Assembly (NCBI RefSeq): GCF_900659615.1
Contig: NZ_CAACUY010000008.1
Location: 1 to 64,000, forward strand
Direction: 5' to 3'
DNA: 64,000 nucleotides
From: Actinomadura fibrosa
GTDB lineage: Bacteria; Actinomycetota; Actinomycetes; Streptosporangiales; Streptosporangiaceae
Part shown: positions 38,194 through 61,624 of the stretch, piece by piece
Layout: each line of letters opens with the position of its first letter
How positions within the stretch are numbered: position 1 is the stretch's first letter
Program-made: the position numbers and the translations under genes
Notes under the pieces: model-generated
Databases searched by the model: none
The model's input: only the letters and a program-made list of their open reading frames with translations
Told to the model about the DNA's origin: nothing

Positions 38194-38655
38194 TCAGTAG
38201 ACCGCCACGGCCGTCACGAAGCCGATCATGAGGTTGGCCACGGCCAGCAGGATCGCCGCGGGCTCCAGCTTGTCGTCGGCGTCGTCCGCCAGCGTGCCGA
38301 TCCGGATGCCGACCAGCCGGTCGAAGATCAGCGTGGCGATCGTCTGGGCCACGATGCCGCCGCCGCCGAACACCAGCGTCCGGGTCAGCCCCTCGGCCAG
38401 GTCCCCGCCCGACGCGAAGATCGACACGCCGACGATCAGCCCCACGCCGACGGTGGCGGCGCAGGCCAGCAGCGTCGCGTTCGGGTTGCGGTGCTCGCGG
38501 ATCACCGTGATCAGGCGGCCCGGCGTGGCGAGGTCGGTCATGTAGAAGCCGACGATGAACAGCACCAGGCCGACCCCGGCGTAGGCGAACAGCGCCCCGG
38601 TCCCGTCCAGCAGCACCTGGCCGAGGCCGTCGTCGTTCGCCGCGAGCGTTGTCAT
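38194..38655 (-). CDS. DUF350 (YjfL-type) membrane protein
   Basis: The 153-residue protein has four membrane helices (FAYAGVGLVLFIVGFYMTDL, LLACAATVGVGLIVGVSIF, VFGGGGIVAQTIATLIFDRL in part, and AAILLAVANLMIGFVTAVAVY). The conserved DUF350 Gly-rich second half is clear. In enterobacteria the homologue YjfL sits with a GSP-synthase-like enzyme (YjfC) and a small lipoprotein (YjfM), and the same trio occurs here. AAGGAG precedes ATG 38655 by five bases. It lies 38 bp after the enzyme gene. Function unknown; it is probably the membrane part of the set. Confidence 0.85.
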   Translation of the reverse strand: MTTLAANDDGLGQVLLDGTGALFAYAGVGLVLFIVGFYMTDLATPGRLITVIREHRNPNATLLACAATVGVGLIVGVSIFASGGDLAEGLTRTLVFGGGGIVAQTIATLIFDRLVGIRIGTLADDADDKLEPAAILLAVANLMIGFVTAVAVY

Positions 38656-38693
38656 GGTTCTCCTTAGAAGGCCGCAGGGTGTTGCAGAGCTGT

Positions 38694-39857
38694 CTACGGG
38701 CGCACGGGGATCCGGTGCGGAACGAACGACGAGGTGTCGTCCGTGATGAGGCCGGACGTCTCCCGGATGCCGATCCCCGCCGACTCGTCATGGACGACCC
38801 ACGCGCCGAGCACCGGATGCTCGCCATCGAAGTCCGGCAGCGGGCAGAACTCCTGGAAGACGAACCCCTCCGCGCCGTAGTCACCCGAGGTGCGCTGCTC
38901 GCGCCCGTCCGGCGTGACGATGCGCATGCTCGCCCCCTCCCGGCCCAGCAGTGGTTTCTGGACGTAGGACGTGAGGCCGCCGGGCGTGTTCAGGTACGTG
39001 GGCAGCAGATTGGGATGCCCGGGGAAGAGCTCCCACAGCAGGACCAGAAGCGCCTTATTGGAGAGCACCATCTTCCAGATCGGCTCGATCCAGGACGTAG
39101 GCGCACCGGGGATGTTGCGGGCGAACGGCTCGGAGACGATCCACTCCCACGGGTAGAGCTTGCAGAGCGTGCGGATCTCCTGCTCGTCCAGGTCGACGAA
39201 CCGTTCGCGGCGCGAGTCCCAGCCGATGTCCTCCATGGCGATCGCCACACCCGGCAGGCCCGCCTCCTCGGCGGTCTCCTGCATGTAGGCGATCGTCATG
39301 ACCTCCTCGCCCGTCTCGTCACCGTTCGTCCAGGCGAAGTGCGCCGGACCGTCCGCCACCCTGGGGACGATCTCCTTCCAGCGGGCCACCAGCCGCTCGT
39401 GGATGGAGTTCCACTGGTCGTCCCCGGGGAACGCGTCCTGCAGCCAGTACCACTGGACCACGGAGCTCTCGACCAGCGCGGTCGGGGTGTCGGCGTTGTA
39501 CTCCAGCAGCTTGGCGGGGCCGTTCCCGTCGTAGCGGAGGTCGAAGCGCCCGTACAGGTGGGGATCGCCGCGCCGCCAGGACTCCTCGATCAGCGGCGCC
39601 ACCCACTCCGGGATGCCGAGGACGTGGTAGCGCCCCGTGCTGACGACGTGCTCCACCACCTGGAGGCACATCCGGTGCAGTTCCTCGACGACCTCTTCGA
39701 GCGCCAGCACCTCGTCCATGTCGAAGACGTAGTGCACGGACTCGTCCCAGTAAGGACGCGTCAGATGCTCGGGATGAGCGGTGCGGTGGAAGGCGAGCCC
39801 CTGCGACTCGACCTTCTCGGCCCAGCCGTCCCGGGGCGCGGAGCGGGTACGGCGCAC
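38694..39857 (-). CDS. Glutathionylspermidine synthase-like ATP-grasp ligase (YgiC/YjfC type)
   Basis: The 387-residue protein matches the synthetase domain of glutathionylspermidine synthase. It has GRFDLRYDGNGPAKLLEYNAD (in part) near residue 105 with the metal- and ATP-binding Glu/Asn/Asp. Next come IGWDSRRERFVD and NIPGAPTSWIEPIWKM, and then KPLLGREGASM with the ATP-grasp lysine. True glutathionylspermidine is not expected in actinobacteria. The YgiC/YjfC group is thought to ligate an amine or peptide to an unknown carboxylate. GTG 39857 starts 3 bp after the lipoprotein stop, so the three genes form an operon. Confidence 0.87.
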   Translation of the reverse strand: MRRTRSAPRDGWAEKVESQGLAFHRTAHPEHLTRPYWDESVHYVFDMDEVLALEEVVEELHRMCLQVVEHVVSTGRYHVLGIPEWVAPLIEESWRRGDPHLYGRFDLRYDGNGPAKLLEYNADTPTALVESSVVQWYWLQDAFPGDDQWNSIHERLVARWKEIVPRVADGPAHFAWTNGDETGEEVMTIAYMQETAEEAGLPGVAIAMEDIGWDSRRERFVDLDEQEIRTLCKLYPWEWIVSEPFARNIPGAPTSWIEPIWKMVLSNKALLVLLWELFPGHPNLLPTYLNTPGGLTSYVQKPLLGREGASMRIVTPDGREQRTSGDYGAEGFVFQEFCPLPDFDGEHPVLGAWVVHDESAGIGIRETSGLITDDTSSFVPHRIPVRP

Positions 39858-39860
39858 CGG

Positions 39861-40259
39861 CTAGCTCCCGCTCCGGCCGCCGCCGCCGAACCCGCCGCGG
39901 CTCAGCGTGTGCCCGCTGCTCGACTTGATCTTGCCTTTGCTGGGCCTGTAGGAGCTCCCGCCCGACACGTAGCCGCTGGAGTTGCGCTTGCCGCCGTAGT
40001 ACCAGAAGTACTGCCCGTACGAACTCGTCGCGGACCGGTTGATGGCGTTGACATCGCAGTACCTGTCCGGAACCACCCGGTACCCGCCCTTGGTCTGACC
40101 GACGGCGGGGGCGTAACGGTCCACGCACCAGGCGGTCGTCGACTTGGACCCGCAGGCGACCAGCGTCAGCGACAGGGCGCCCAGCATCCCCACCTTCACG
40201 GCACGGGAACTGAGACGGCGAGCGGACTCCTGTGGCGGCAAAGGGAACACGTCCTTCAA
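39861..40259 (-). CDS. Small Gly-tailed lipoprotein of the DUF350/GSP-synthase operon
   Basis: The 132-residue protein has a hydrophobic segment ending in the lipobox LTLVAC (Cys36 from TTG 40259, or Cys16 from an internal GTG about 20 codons later; the start is uncertain). The mature part has WCVDRYAP, a YRVVPDRYCD motif, aromatic SYGQYFWYYGG, and a C-terminal tail SRGGFGGGGRSGS. The tail resembles the RGGFG ending of YgiB/YjfM proteins that accompany YgiC/YjfC. It may be the substrate of the ligase encoded next to it; that is inference. Confidence 0.75.
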   Translation of the reverse strand: MKDVFPLPPQESARRLSSRAVKVGMLGALSLTLVACGSKSTTAWCVDRYAPAVGQTKGGYRVVPDRYCDVNAINRSATSSYGQYFWYYGGKRNSSGYVSGGSSYRPSKGKIKSSSGHTLSRGGFGGGGRSGS

Positions 40260-40415
40260 AACGAGACGGCGGCCGCCCGGAAGGTTCCGGACGGCATGGT
40301 CGGACGCCCTCGTGAGGCAGGTTCCGAACGCGCGAAGCCATAGCCTAGGGGCGGCACGACTTGAGACGGAAGCACCCCATATTCCGGTTCCGTCACATCG
40401 CGGGCACCGCCGGTG

Positions 40416-41285
40416 TCAGTCCGGAACCGGCAGATGCGCGTACAGGTCCATGGCGTCCACGGACGAGGGCAGATCGCTGACCTGGCCGTCGCCCACCTCG
40501 ACCACGCGCCACGCGCCGTCCCTGCGGCGCGCCAGGTCCGTCGTGATGAAACGGCACCCCAGCGCCCGCACCGCCGGCGCCACCGCGTCCAGCTCGGGGT
40601 CGGGCTCCACGTCCGGACTGTCGGGATGGGGCCCCACCAGGGCCGGCTCCCCGTCCACCCACCAGACGCGCGCCTCCCCCTGGCCGTCGTAGTCCTCGTA
40701 CTCGCGCACGACCAGGCCGCCCGCCAGGTAGTCGTCCTGCAAGGCGATCATCTTGGCGGCGATGTCCCGCAGCTGCGCCAGGTTCTTCACGTCGGGCACG
40801 AAGCACGCCTCGTCCCACTCGTGCTTGCGCGACTTCACGTAGTCCTTGATGATCGCGGGCCCCGCCTTCAGCGGCCGGACCAGCTCGCCCAGCTCGTTCA
40901 GGTCGCCCGGATCCTGGCCCGGCGCCAGCGGCCGCCACACGCTCTGCGGGGTCAGCCCGGCGAACGTGTCGTGCCAGCCCGGCAGCTCGTGCGCGCGACG
41001 ATAGTCGTCCGGATGAGTCAGCAGCACCGTACCGCGGCGCTTCATGAGAGTGGCGATCGCGGCATACTGGTCGCCGGTGACCATCCAGCCGCGGTACCAG
41101 ACGGCGCCCAGATCCGAGGGCACCGCGCGCACCGCCCCTTCCACGTCCCCGCGCCGCAGCGCGTCGTGGTCGATCAGAGCGATCTCGCCGTAGTGGTCCC
41201 GCACGGCCGCGGCCTCGCGGGAGAAGTGGGGGTCAACGCGCCGGGGATGGAGCGGATCGACGCAGAAGAGAACGGTCAGCGTCAT
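40416..41285 (-). CDS. ATP-grasp protein (R2K-type, former DUF4343)
   Basis: The 289-residue protein has an N-terminal alpha/beta part (TVLFCVDPLHPRRVDPHF) and an ATP-grasp core with the paired lysines of the R2K type (PAIIKDYVKSRKHEWDEACF). It also shows VVREYEDYDGQGEARVWWVDG, and the late metal-binding WRVVEVGDGQVSDLP. It probably ligates an amine or peptide to a carboxylate. GGAGGG precedes ATG 41285. It lies 156 bp upstream of the lipoprotein gene on the same strand, and divergent from recA. Confidence 0.8.
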   Translation of the reverse strand: MTLTVLFCVDPLHPRRVDPHFSREAAAVRDHYGEIALIDHDALRRGDVEGAVRAVPSDLGAVWYRGWMVTGDQYAAIATLMKRRGTVLLTHPDDYRRAHELPGWHDTFAGLTPQSVWRPLAPGQDPGDLNELGELVRPLKAGPAIIKDYVKSRKHEWDEACFVPDVKNLAQLRDIAAKMIALQDDYLAGGLVVREYEDYDGQGEARVWWVDGEPALVGPHPDSPDVEPDPELDAVAPAVRALGCRFITTDLARRRDGAWRVVEVGDGQVSDLPSSVDAMDLYAHLPVPD

Positions 41286-41378
41286 GATGGAACCCTCCGT
41301 GGACGGCGCCAGCGTACGGGGTTCCGCCCCTGGAACGCACGGTGAATCCCGTCCCAAAACGGCATTCGGAAAGATGAT

Positions 41379-41392
41379 CGAACGAATGTTCG
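41379..41392. promoter_or_regulatory. LexA (SOS) box upstream of recA
   Basis: CGAACGAATGTTCG contains the actinobacterial LexA consensus GAAC-N4-GTTC exactly. It lies 138 bp before the recA start and 94 bp before the divergent ATP-grasp start. It should give DNA-damage induction of recA and could also affect the divergent gene. Confidence 0.85.
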
Positions 41393-41529
41393 GTAAGGTG
41401 GTCCGCGACCCGGGACGCCGTCCGCGTCCGCGCCCGGGTTGCGAAAGTGTCGGTGGCCCGCCGTAACGTCGCCCTCGACATCGCAAGCAGCGGCCGAGAG
41501 CCGACAGTTCACGACGAGAAGGACATCTC

Positions 41530-42651
41530 ATGGCAGCGAACGACCGGGAGAAGGCTCTCGAGACCGCACTCGCCCAGATCGAGCGTCAGTTCGGCAAGGG
41601 CTCGGTCATGCGGATGGGCGAGGAGGCGCGGGCACCGGTCGAGGTGATCCCCACCGGCGCGATCTCCCTCGACATCGCCCTCGGCATCGGCGGCCTGCCC
41701 CGCGGCCGCGTCGTCGAGGTGTACGGCCCCGAGGGCTCCGGCAAGACCTCCATCGCCCTGCACGCGGTGGCCAGCGTCCAGCGCAAGGGCGGCATCGCCG
41801 CGTTCGTCGACGCCGAGCACGCCCTCGACCCCGAGTACGCCGCCAAGCTCGGCGTCGACATCGACGCGCTGCTGGTCTCCCAGCCCGACACCGGCGAGCA
41901 GGCGCTCGAGATCACCGACATGCTGATCCGCTCCGGCTCCATCGACATCGTGATCATCGACTCGGTGGCGGCGCTCGTCCCCCGCGCCGAGATCGAGGGC
42001 GAGATGGGCGACAGCCACGTCGGCCTCCAGGCCCGGCTGATGTCGCAGGCGCTCCGCAAGCTCACCGGCGCGATCAACCAGACCAAGACGACCGTCATCT
42101 TCATCAACCAGCTCCGCGAGAAGGTCGGCGTCATGTTCGGCTCCCCGGAGACCACCACCGGCGGCAAGGCGCTGAAGTTCTACGCCTCCGTCCGCCTCGA
42201 CGTCCGCCGCATCGAGACCCTCAAGGACGGCACCGAGGCCGTCGGCAACCGCGTCCGCGTGAAGGTCGTCAAGAACAAGATGGCCCCGCCGTTCCGCGTC
42301 GCCGACTTCGACCTGCTCTACGGCCAGGGCATCAGCCGCGAGGGCGGCCTGATCGACCTCGGCGTCGAGCACGGCTTCGTCCGCAAGTCCGGCGCCTGGT
42401 ACACCTGCGACGGCGACCAGCTCGGCCAGGGCAAGGAGAACGCCCGCAACTTCCTCAAGGCCAACCCCGACATGGCCGACGGGATCGAGAAGCGGATCAA
42501 GGAGAAGCTCGGCATCGGCCCGAAGGTCGACAAGGAGGCCGAGCCCGCCGCCGCGGACGCCGCCCCGCCGGCCCCGGCCCCGGCCGCCGCCCCCGCGAAG
42601 GCCGCCGCCGGGAGGAAGCCCGCCAAGGCCGCCAAGTCGGGTGATTCCTGA
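41530..42651 (+). CDS. recA: Recombinase RecA
   Basis: RecA forms ATP-dependent filaments on single-stranded DNA, drives strand exchange and triggers LexA cleavage. The 373-residue protein has Walker A GPEGSGKT (66-73), Walker [12 protein letters not shown], the L1/L2 loops ([31 protein letters not shown] in part), and an Ala/Pro/Lys-rich C-terminal tail after about 335 instead of the acidic enterobacterial tail. ATG 41530 follows GAGAAGGA. An SOS box precedes it, and recX follows after 175 bp. Confidence 0.98.
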
Positions 42652-42826: not shown

Positions 42827-44788
42827 ATGACCCGCTCCCCGGACGACCCCGCCAACCCCTGGCTCCCGGACTCCCCGGACACCTCACCGGAGGAGTCCGC
42901 GCCCCTGCCGTGGAACGCCCCGGCGCCCCCACCCCCCACGCCACCCTGGAGCACCCCCGAGACAAACCCCTGGACCACCGAACAACCCACCCCAGGGGCC
43001 CCTCCCACCAAGCCAAGCTCCACTGCCCCGAACGCCTCCGGGCCATCCGGCTCTAAGGCGCCGACCTCATCTGAGGCGGCTGCGGCCGAGCCTTTGCCCT
43101 TCCAGGTCGTGAAGGGCGATGCGAACCCCTGGGCAGCCACCCCCATCCCCGTGGTCGCGCCATCCGAGCCTGACGACGCCGAAACCACGCCGCCAACAGC
43201 GTCCACTCCGGCTACCACCGCACAGCGCGACAAACCCGGCCGCGTAGCCACCCCGTCCAGCGACCGCACGGAATCACCGACGACCAAACGCCCCGCCCAT
43301 CCAACACCCACCCCCGAAGGACCGGCCCCCGAAGGGCGCGCCCCCGGGGGATCCGTTCCCGAAGGACCCGTTCCCGAAGGACCCGCTCCCGAAGGGCGCG
43401 CCCCCGGGGGACCCGCTCCCGGAGGACCCGCTCCCGGAGGACCCGCTCCCGGAGGATCTGCTCCCGGGGGATCCGCTCCCGGAGGGCCCGTCCCCGGAGA
43501 ATCCGCTTCCGGGGGACCTGCTTCCGAAGGATCCGCTCCCGGAGGATCCGTCCCCGGAAAATCCGCTCCCGGGGGACCTGCCCTCGAAGGGTCCGTCCCC
43601 GAAGGACTCGCTCCCGGAGGATCCATCCGCGAAGGATCCGCCTCCGCGTCGTCGCCTTCGGGGCCCTCACTCCTGGGCCCGTCCGTGCCCGCTGAGTTCG
43701 CGGCTGGCCGTACTGCGTCTGACTCGTCCGCCCCCGCTCGTCCAGCGCCTGATTTGCCCGCGCCTGGCTCGTCCGTGGCTGACTTGCGGGTGGCCGGGGG
43801 ATCTGGCGGCTCTGGCGAGTCGAGGGATGGCGGGGAGAGGGGACCTTCTGACGGCTCGTTGTCGGTCGGGCGTTCTGGCCGGGGGACGAGCGGGCGTGGG
43901 CGTCGTTCCCGCGAGGCGTCACTTGGTGAGCCGAGTGCTTCGTATCAGGACGAGTCGGGTGTCGCCGGTGGTTCTTCTGCTGGCGAGGTTCCGGCGGGTG
44001 AGGCTTCGCGAGGTGAGGTTGGTGCTCGTGGGGCTCGTGGTGGGACTGCGAGGCGGCCGAAGGGAAGCGCTTCTGGACGAGGTGGGCGGCGTCGTGGAGG
44101 TGCGGCATCCGCAGGTGAGGGCGTTGGCGGCCGTTCTGCGGGTGGTGGTGCGTTCGGGGGTGCGGGCAGCGTTTGGGGGCCCGAGGGCTCCGGTGCTGGC
44201 GGGAAGAAGCGTCAGCGGACGGGTGGGCGCGGGCGTGGTGAGCCGCGCGAGGGAGATCGTGAGGAGCAGGGGGGCGGCGGGTCCGATCCTGAGGCGAAGG
44301 CCCGGGAAATCTGCCTGCGGCTGCTCGCCATGTCGCCGCGTACTCGGGCGCAGTTGGCGGACGCGTTGCGGCGCAAGGGGATCCCCGATGAGGTGGCCGA
44401 GCTCGTTCTATCGCGGTTCAGCGACGTCGGGCTCATCGACGACGAGGCGTTCGCCCAGGCGTGGGTGCAGTCACGGCATGCGGGGAAGGGGCTCGCGAAA
44501 CGGGCCCTGGCCGCGGAGCTCCGGCGGCGCGGGGTTGCCGACGAGACCGTGAACGACGCGGTCGAGTCGCTCGACCCGGAGCAGGAGGAGCAGACCGCGC
44601 GCGCCCTGGTCGACCGGAAGCTCCGTAGTACGCGGGGTGTCGAGCCGGCCAAGCGCATGCGCCGCCTGGTGGGCATGCTCGCTCGTAAGGGGTATCCGCC
44701 CGGCCTGAGTTACCGGGTGGTCAAGGAGGCGCTCGCGGACGAGGGCGCCGATCTCGACGACGTTCCCGACGCGTCGCCCTTCGACTGA
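42827..44788 (+). CDS. recX: RecX regulatory protein with a very long repetitive N-terminal extension
   Basis: Residues about 493-646 are a full RecX domain of three-helix repeats (REICLRLLAMSPRTRAQLAD, LSRFSDVGLIDDEAFAQAWV, RRLVGMLARKGYPPGLSYRV). It should cap or inhibit RecA filaments. Typical RecX proteins are 150-270 residues; this frame is 653. The extra 490 residues are a Pro-rich start (PANPWLPDSPD), about 22 copies of a five-residue APGGP/VPEGP repeat (about 163-273), and a Gly/Ser/Arg-rich segment with less biased codons. No ribosome site precedes ATG 42827, so a later start cannot be ruled out. Confidence 0.85.
   Translation: MTRSPDDPANPWLPDSPDTSPEESAPLPWNAPAPPPPTPPWSTPETNPWTTEQPTPGAPPTKPSSTAPNASGPSGSKAPTSSEAAAAEPLPFQVVKGDANPWAATPIPVVAPSEPDDAETTPPTASTPATTAQRDKPGRVATPSSDRTESPTTKRPAHPTPTPEGPAPEGRAPGGSVPEGPVPEGPAPEGRAPGGPAPGGPAPGGPAPGGSAPGGSAPGGPVPGESASGGPASEGSAPGGSVPGKSAPGGPALEGSVPEGLAPGGSIREGSASASSPSGPSLLGPSVPAEFAAGRTASDSSAPARPAPDLPAPGSSVADLRVAGGSGGSGESRDGGERGPSDGSLSVGRSGRGTSGRGRRSREASLGEPSASYQDESGVAGGSSAGEVPAGEASRGEVGARGARGGTARRPKGSASGRGGRRRGGAASAGEGVGGRSAGGGAFGGAGSVWGPEGSGAGGKKRQRTGGRGRGEPREGDREEQGGGGSDPEAKAREICLRLLAMSPRTRAQLADALRRKGIPDEVAELVLSRFSDVGLIDDEAFAQAWVQSRHAGKGLAKRALAAELRRRGVADETVNDAVESLDPEQEEQTARALVDRKLRSTRGVEPAKRMRRLVGMLARKGYPPGLSYRVVKEALADEGADLDDVPDASPFD
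43312..43645 (+). repeat. 15-bp tandem repeat within the recX extension
   Basis: About 22 copies of GGACCCGCTCCCGGA-type units lie in frame and encode five-residue blocks such as PAPGG, SVPEG and RAPGG. Variation includes CCCGAAGG versus CCCGGAGG and CCCGGGGG, so copies have diverged but kept frame. Confidence 0.85.
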
Positions 44789-61612: not shown

Positions 61613-61624
61613 GAACGTCCGTTC
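61613..61624. promoter_or_regulatory. Candidate TetR operator 1 (GAACGTCCGTTC)
   Basis: GAACG-TC-CGTTC is an inverted repeat 17 bp upstream of the tetR start and just before a TTGACA box (61625-61630) on the plus strand. A related half-conserved site, ACGAACATTCCTT, lies at 61670-61682, close to the membrane-protein start. Both could be bound by the TetR protein. Confidence 0.6.

Follow-up and report, generated by a model that had tools for sequence, protein, structure and literature searches.

The closest described relatives of the system considered here are the YgiB-YgiC and YjfL-YjfM-YjfC sets of Escherichia coli, in which the ATP-grasp ligases YgiC and YjfC each have a partner protein of the DUF1190 family (YgiB and YjfM) encoded directly upstream, and in which the yjf operon adds a DUF350 membrane protein. 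RefSeq names both enzymes peptide--spermidine ligase and a paper title in a reference list credits them with that activity, while YgiC is reported, in the part of the source available, to lack glutathionylspermidine (GSP) synthetase activity. We compared with these sets a locus of the soil actinobacterium Actinomadura fibrosa (contig NZ_CAACUY010000008.1, assembly GCF_900659615.1; the 64,000-nucleotide stretch analysed is called the window), whose minus strand encodes, between 38194 and 41285, a DUF350 protein, a GSP_synth-type ligase, a lipoprotein and an R2K_3 ATP-grasp enzyme (Table 1). All four genes are real: open frames, and Pfam matches for all but the lipoprotein, confirm what an earlier reading of the letters alone (the sequence-only reading) had listed. 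Three of them, for the surface lipoprotein, the YgiC/YjfC-type ligase and the DUF350 membrane protein, form a cassette. We propose, with a confidence of roughly 55%, that this cassette makes an amine-capped surface protein, the ligase joining an amine to the C-terminal carboxylate of the lipoprotein's tail before export.

Judged by sequence, the ligase-lipoprotein pair belongs to the already known YgiBC/YjfMC kind, here with a different partner body. The ligase family, an upstream partner with an RGG[F/Y]G tail and a Gly end, and the DUF350 gene of the yjf operon are common to both; the gene order differs (DUF350-partner-ligase in yjf, partner-ligase-DUF350 here), the window partner, unlike YgiB and YjfM, is not a DUF1190 protein, and the cassette is without a PspA-family, YjfI or YjfK gene. 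The correspondence with YjfL, YjfC and YjfM/YgiB drawn in the sequence-only reading holds for the ligase and DUF350 and is not supported for the lipoprotein body; its description of the E. coli set as little characterised is outdated by the RefSeq names. The PspA/polyamine envelope operons of Ravi et al. (2024, PMC11237479; DUF350, DUF1190, DUF4247, DUF2617 and DUF4178) likewise combine a GSP-synthetase-related ligase with DUF350 and a surface lipoprotein. Unlike these, the window cassette shows no PspA or CesT/Tir gene, and the available part of that paper does not mention a common C-terminal tail.

The Pfam profile PF03738 matches the ligase over its whole length (profile positions 1-371 of 371 on residues 12-383 of 387), and the protein is 43% identical to YgiC and 41% to YjfC of E. 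coli, both with solved structures (PDB 7uk8, E 4.9e-91, and 7uk6, E 3.6e-83, respectively). Residues R104, D106, E119, N121, K268, K301 and R365, which we take to correspond to the metal/ATP site of GSP synthetase, are invariant across nine aligned ligases including YgiC and YjfC. By sequence the ATP-grasp synthetase fold of GspSA and TryS is also shared over the C-terminal part (PDB 3o98 and 2vob); unlike those enzymes, the window ligase is only 387 residues long, yielded no amidase family, and falls far short of the bifunctional GSP synthetase equivalog NF007801 (123.9 bits, with the cut-off at 882).

Pairing of ligase and partner, and the C-terminal tail

To see how consistently the genes occur together, we surveyed 150 genomes of the order and fetched, besides the window, 51 of the 89 relatives' ligase loci. 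The ligase was found at 90 loci in 86 genomes. A partner profile, scored on up to 28 first-look candidates per genome, matched 87 genomes, namely 85 of the 86 with a ligase (all at E <=3.2e-15) and two ligase-less genomes with weak matches; strong matches were found in 0 of the 64 ligase-less genomes. The sole ligase genome without a partner match (G137) has a contig that ends just beyond the ligase. Ligase and partner are inseparable. At 69 of the 90 loci the next gene after the ligase, in the same orientation, is DUF350. So it is at 61 of 80 loci (the named loci) that represent the best 80 of 583 in a wider ligase scan of the collection's bacteria and archaea, but at only 6 of the 12 ligase loci in the genus of the window. 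Extra partner copies occur in some ligase-bearing genomes, unlinked in G106, G113, G122, G142, G148 and G034 and in tandem at G120:C15 and G123:C24, so that one ligase may serve several tails.

The window lipoprotein has an n-region with RR, a hydrophobic stretch, a lipobox LVAC, two conserved Cys and a C-terminal tail. Its start is more likely the TTG at 40241 than the longest-frame start at 40259, because relatives begin MPPQ... and the profile match also starts at 40241. Cys 39 and Cys 62 (126-residue numbering) are invariant in 32 relatives, and across the aligned family the only invariant positions are these two Cys, one Tyr, one Gly and the tail motif's three Gly. A simple-pattern lipobox is present in 22 of the 80 named relatives; the remainder resemble proteins that cross the membrane once, with a basic stretch preceding the transmembrane part. 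The sequence-only reading gave the end of the window protein as SRGGFGGGG; the actual C-terminus is SRGGFGGGGRSGS.

The tail is the most conserved part of the partner, while the remaining body varies. We defined a tail rule as GG[FYLWAMVI]G within the last 45 residues together with a terminal Gly, Ser or Thr. The frame ending at the ligase fits this rule in all 131 actinobacterial loci that could be read, against 65 of 9,047 other frames; the stricter RKST-GG-hydrophobic-G form is present in 130 of the 131 and in 16 of the 9,047. In these comparisons the partner frame was picked, with preference for the motif, from one to three candidates per locus, and non-coding frames are among the controls. 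Some genomes are present in two copies, so that the 131 loci represent 126 distinct ligases, whose partners carry RGGFG in 87 cases and RGGLG in 24, mostly 7 to 10 residues from the end, with Ser (79), Gly (46) or Thr (1) as last residue. The expectation of the sequence-only reading that an amide-bond-forming enzyme stands beside a surface protein with conserved tail residues is borne out, and the two co-occur strictly.

Within the window's genome, RGGFG-encoding DNA sites are about as frequent (36) as those of a reversed control pattern (29). Among the 30 sites fetched, 26 of which were parsed, the window lipoprotein is the sole frame of more than 50 codons that fits the rule, in a scan for RGGFG alone; frames of 28 and 47 codons also fit, and two longer frames with the motif near their ends terminate in Arg or Ala.

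The body of the partner is less easily placed. The window protein matches no Pfam family up to E 1; DUF1190 (PF06693) is not matched, whereas YgiB and YjfM do match it, and membership in DUF1190 is ruled out on this basis. When the profile of 32 actinobacterial partners was compared with that of 15 partners of DUF1190, phage or plasmid type, no more than 34 N-terminal columns could be aligned. Homology of the bodies is thus not shown, and the tail that they have in common may be either inherited or convergent. The predicted structure has a mean predicted local distance difference test (pLDDT) score of 64.3 and no PDB match at E 0.001; residues 117-126, in the tail, score below 50 and are modelled as disordered.

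The tail on other bodies and in a sister operon

Both E. coli partners carry the tail: YgiB ends TRGGFG...SMGG and YjfM ends SRGGYG...HWGG. Pfam DUF1190 is matched by YgiB, YjfM and the partner of an Ochrobactrum phage, and weakly by those of phages Motura and Lazarus; the window protein and partners from a Streptomyces, a Deinococcus and a Bacillus gave no DUF1190 match. We opened 12 of 134 to 136 phage records and 11 of 164 plasmid records. On plasmids the strict motif occurs in a neighbour of the ligase at 7 of the 11 loci, in two of them downstream of the ligase, and in the phage collection a neighbouring secreted protein has the strict tail in 10 of the 12. One of these ten (L149) is probably host DNA, because bacterial housekeeping genes surround the pair, and in another, DSS3_VP1, the tail protein lies at the opposite end of the linear record, adjacent to the ligase only if the genome is circularly permuted. 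The T4-like phages have the pair near rI, rIIA or a lysozyme-inhibitor-like gene.

Achromobacter phage Motura (L148, 803-3628) encodes a homospermidine synthase, a tail lipoprotein and the ligase in a row. Li et al. noted this cluster and, in the part of their work available, proposed glutathionylhomospermidine as its product. Because the tail protein stands between the synthase and ligase genes, the arrangement suggests instead a homospermidine-capped lipoprotein. Phage records with a ligase and a Gly-tailed secreted protein are L146-L148, L151 and L163-L169. On the Curtobacterium plasmid pCff1 (L157, 3399-4582) the ligase beside the tail protein looks broken, as it is annotated as two separate pieces.

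A second DUF350 gene of the window's genome lies in a DUF4178-DUF2617-DUF4247-DUF350-SpeE-like operon (L062, G000:C66, 5119-8780, minus strand), which we call the sister operon and which matches the DUF4247/DUF2617 set of Ravi et al. (2024, PMC11237479); operons of this type are described there, with no mention of tails in the part available. The DUF4247 protein ends in FRGGGPGSGK, and the operon holds the single SpeE-like (spermidine-synthase-like) match of the genome. Twenty further loci were fetched from the 78 DUF350 loci away from a ligase. The protein at the DUF4247 position ends RGGGxGxGK at all 20 (21 of 21 with the window's genome), the tails having been picked with preference for the motif and three of the 20 by pattern search of the whole stretch; a SpeE-like gene was matched at all 20 and a DUF4247 body, by tblastn, at four. 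A terminal amine (Lys) thus stands beside a SpeE-like, aminopropyltransferase-like enzyme and a terminal carboxylate beside an amide ligase, which suggests that tail end and enzyme chemistry are matched. Against simple aminopropyl transfer in the sister operon, most genomes are without an S-adenosylmethionine (AdoMet) decarboxylase match.

More tentatively, these loci may be instances of a general tail-coded modification in bacteria and phages, in which an envelope protein of variable body has a C-terminal RGGxG tail whose last residue is chemically suited to the neighbouring enzyme (a Gly/Ser carboxylate with an ATP-grasp amide ligase, the terminal Lys of RGGGxGxGK with a SpeE-like enzyme). 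DUF350 would be the membrane partner common to both, and phages would carry the ligase and the tail protein as a pair with which to change the envelope of their host.

The recA neighbourhood and other features of the window

The R2K gene belongs to the recA neighbourhood and not to the cassette, because it is linked to few ligase loci and stays beside recA where the cassette is missing. Only 12 of the 90 ligase loci of the order have it within 5 kb, 11 in the window's own genus and one in Actinocorallia; among the 80 named loci it is near 11, with recA in the stretch every time. Among eight fetched R2K loci without the cassette, six keep the order recA-R2K-DUF3046, one (L022) has neither neighbour and one (L018) is cut by a contig end. 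In this genus and its close relatives the cassette lies between R2K and DUF3046. A four-gene unit that includes R2K is rejected on this linkage; the sequence-only reading had counted the R2K enzyme as a member of the system, and in the co-occurrence that it called for, the ligase-partner link and largely that with DUF350 hold while that with R2K does not.

By Pfam R2K_3 the enzyme is a member of the R2K.3 ATP-grasp family (Burroughs et al., 2015, PMC4431377), which the available part of that paper links in some bacteria to GNAT or R2K.2 genes and not to recA or a YgiC-type ligase. Its structure model resembles ATP-grasp ligases of the RimK/ArgX/PsnB type, with DcsG as the best match. The SOS box proposed near the divergent recA is present as a palindrome between the two genes, one of two GAAC-N4-GTTC sites in the window (the other is at 61613). 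Across 17 scanned loci, with or without the cassette, 16 have a LexA-type box between R2K and the divergent recA, and in the 17th a LexA-type match lies inside the recA hit. A pattern scan of the region placed its sole LexA-type box upstream of R2K/recA, with none at the cassette's own promoter. The stress control that the sequence-only reading considered thus finds no support in a box belonging to the cassette, though read-through from R2K may occur. The stretch 40416-41530, with R2K divergent from recA and a LexA-type box between them, may encode an SOS-linked R2K enzyme, which would merit separate study.

The remaining features of the region are collected in Table 1. The lipoprotein stop codon is 3 nucleotides from the ligase start, and the 156-nucleotide gap between lipoprotein and R2K is valid only for the longest lipoprotein frame (start 40259). 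A promoter and terminator scan of the region gave no signal above chance. Downstream of recA, on the plus strand at 42827-44788, a 653-residue frame has a long repetitive first part rich in Pro, Gly, Ala and Glu, followed by a putative RecX domain.

Table 1. Coordinates of the cassette and of neighbouring features in the window
Feature	Position	Strand	Remarks
DUF350 membrane protein of YjfL type, third cassette gene	38194..38655	-	PF03994, E 4e-19, 69.4 bits against a cut-off of 26
ATP-grasp amide ligase, YgiC/YjfC type	38694..39857	-	GTG start; PF03738 full length, E 3.7e-153
Partner lipoprotein	39861..40241	-	126 residues from TTG 40241; longest frame 39861-40259
Lipobox L-V-A-C of the partner lipoprotein	40152..40163	-	Cys codon 40152-40154, read from the translation
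C-terminal tail RGGFGGGGRSGS of the lipoprotein, proposed recognition site	39864..39899	-	Ligation proposed at the terminal carboxylate
R2K_3 ATP-grasp enzyme, neighbour judged outside the cassette	40416..41285	-	PF14243, E 5.9e-46
SOS/LexA-type palindrome GAACGAATGTTC	41380..41391		Pattern scan; between R2K gene and recA, assigned to recA/R2K

What the cassette may make

In the pathway that we favour, the membrane lipoprotein would be synthesised with a flexible tail ending RGGFG...Gly/Ser, which the cytosolic ATP-grasp ligase would recognise through RGG[F/L]G. The ligase would then convert the C-terminal carboxylate into an activated acyl phosphate and couple it to an amine, on the model of GSP synthetase acting on the C-terminal Gly of glutathione; the capped protein would be exported and stay anchored with its cationic end outside, and the membrane protein DUF350 would serve the same pathway. 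The tail is most likely the substrate and its terminal carboxylate the bond site; its disorder, fixed recognition motif and small last residue fit such a role. Modification most likely comes before export and would have to, because ATP is inside the cell and the mature tail outside. The amine may be polyamine-like; in E. coli the RefSeq name points to spermidine.

Several observations weigh against amine capping of the tail. The mature tail lies outside the cell while ATP is inside. The terminal residue is mostly Ser in the Actinobacteria, as opposed to Gly in most proteobacterial and phage partners, and the motif itself is not universal: the Rhizobium and Deinococcus plasmid partners have only near forms, if Gly-ended ones, the Bacillus subtilis plasmid partner has a Gly/Ser tail ending GFGG without the exact motif, Pseudomonas phage phiPMW and Bacillus phage PJN02 have looser Gly/Ser tails ending GG, and in Azospirillum (ligase 26% identical) none of the genes read at the locus encodes a tail partner. 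DUF350 is missing from 21 of the 90 ligase loci, and the two weak partner matches in ligase-less genomes (E 1.2e-5 and 2.4e-4) stand beside DUF350 genes. As to the amine, AdoMet decarboxylase (SpeD, PF02675) was not matched in this genome or in 14 others of the genus, and its matches, in 19 of the 150 genomes overall, are spread over 11 of the 86 ligase genomes and 8 of the 64 others. Spermidine from the classical route is for this reason not supported here; uptake or another route is possible.

Among the other explanations, we consider it unlikely that the product of the ligase is a soluble peptide-amine or some other small amide, with the lipoprotein serving as a sensor or regulator whose tail binds the enzyme unmodified. 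GSP synthetases do produce small molecules, the RefSeq name specifies only "peptide" as the substrate of YgiC and YjfC, and Li et al. suggested glutathionylhomospermidine for Motura in the part of their work available; a docking motif, however, needs neither a position at the very C-terminus nor a last residue restricted to Gly, Ser or Thr, and the large shortfall against the bifunctional GSP synthetase equivalog also speaks against this reading. Alternatively, the Gly/Arg-rich tail could be functional by itself, in metal, nucleic-acid or lipid binding, folding or sorting, with the ligase acting elsewhere in the pathway. The modelled disorder would suit such a role, as would the term metal-chelating lipoprotein that Ravi et al. 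(PMC11237479), in the part available, apply to DUF1190. We regard it as rather improbable, given that unrelated bodies and two anchor types share the tail and that a partner without a ligase was not strongly matched in any of the 64 ligase-less genomes.

The joint action of R2K and the YgiC-type ligase on the tail, with all four genes as one system, has very little to recommend it: the genes are co-directional here, in ten readable sister genomes of the genus and in Actinocorallia, yet nothing ties the R2K enzyme, whose model resembles RimK/ArgX/PsnB-type ligases, to the tail, and the sparse linkage to ligase loci described above points the other way. It is equally hard to believe that the tail is a signal for degradation or protease processing which an amidated end would block or time. 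C-terminal degradation tags have precedents, and this tail is short, exposed and C-terminal with small last residues, but the cassette contains no protease gene.

No paper in the literature searched connects the RGGFG tail with these ligases; to that extent the tail rule is new, as is its application to phages and the DUF4247 operon, although YgiB/YjfM may have been proposed as substrate before, in Pederick 2023, Iyer 2009 or Li 2019. That literature records an activity for YgiC and YjfC with no named natural substrate. A tail that accompanies the ligase on unrelated bodies, with two anchor types, in several phyla and in phages would name one, and the sister operon supplies a second, independent prediction, a modified terminal Lys. 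If the proposal is true, the synthetase gene that adjoins homospermidine synthase in Motura would be reinterpreted, and C-terminal amine capping would be a modification of envelope proteins tied to stress operons.

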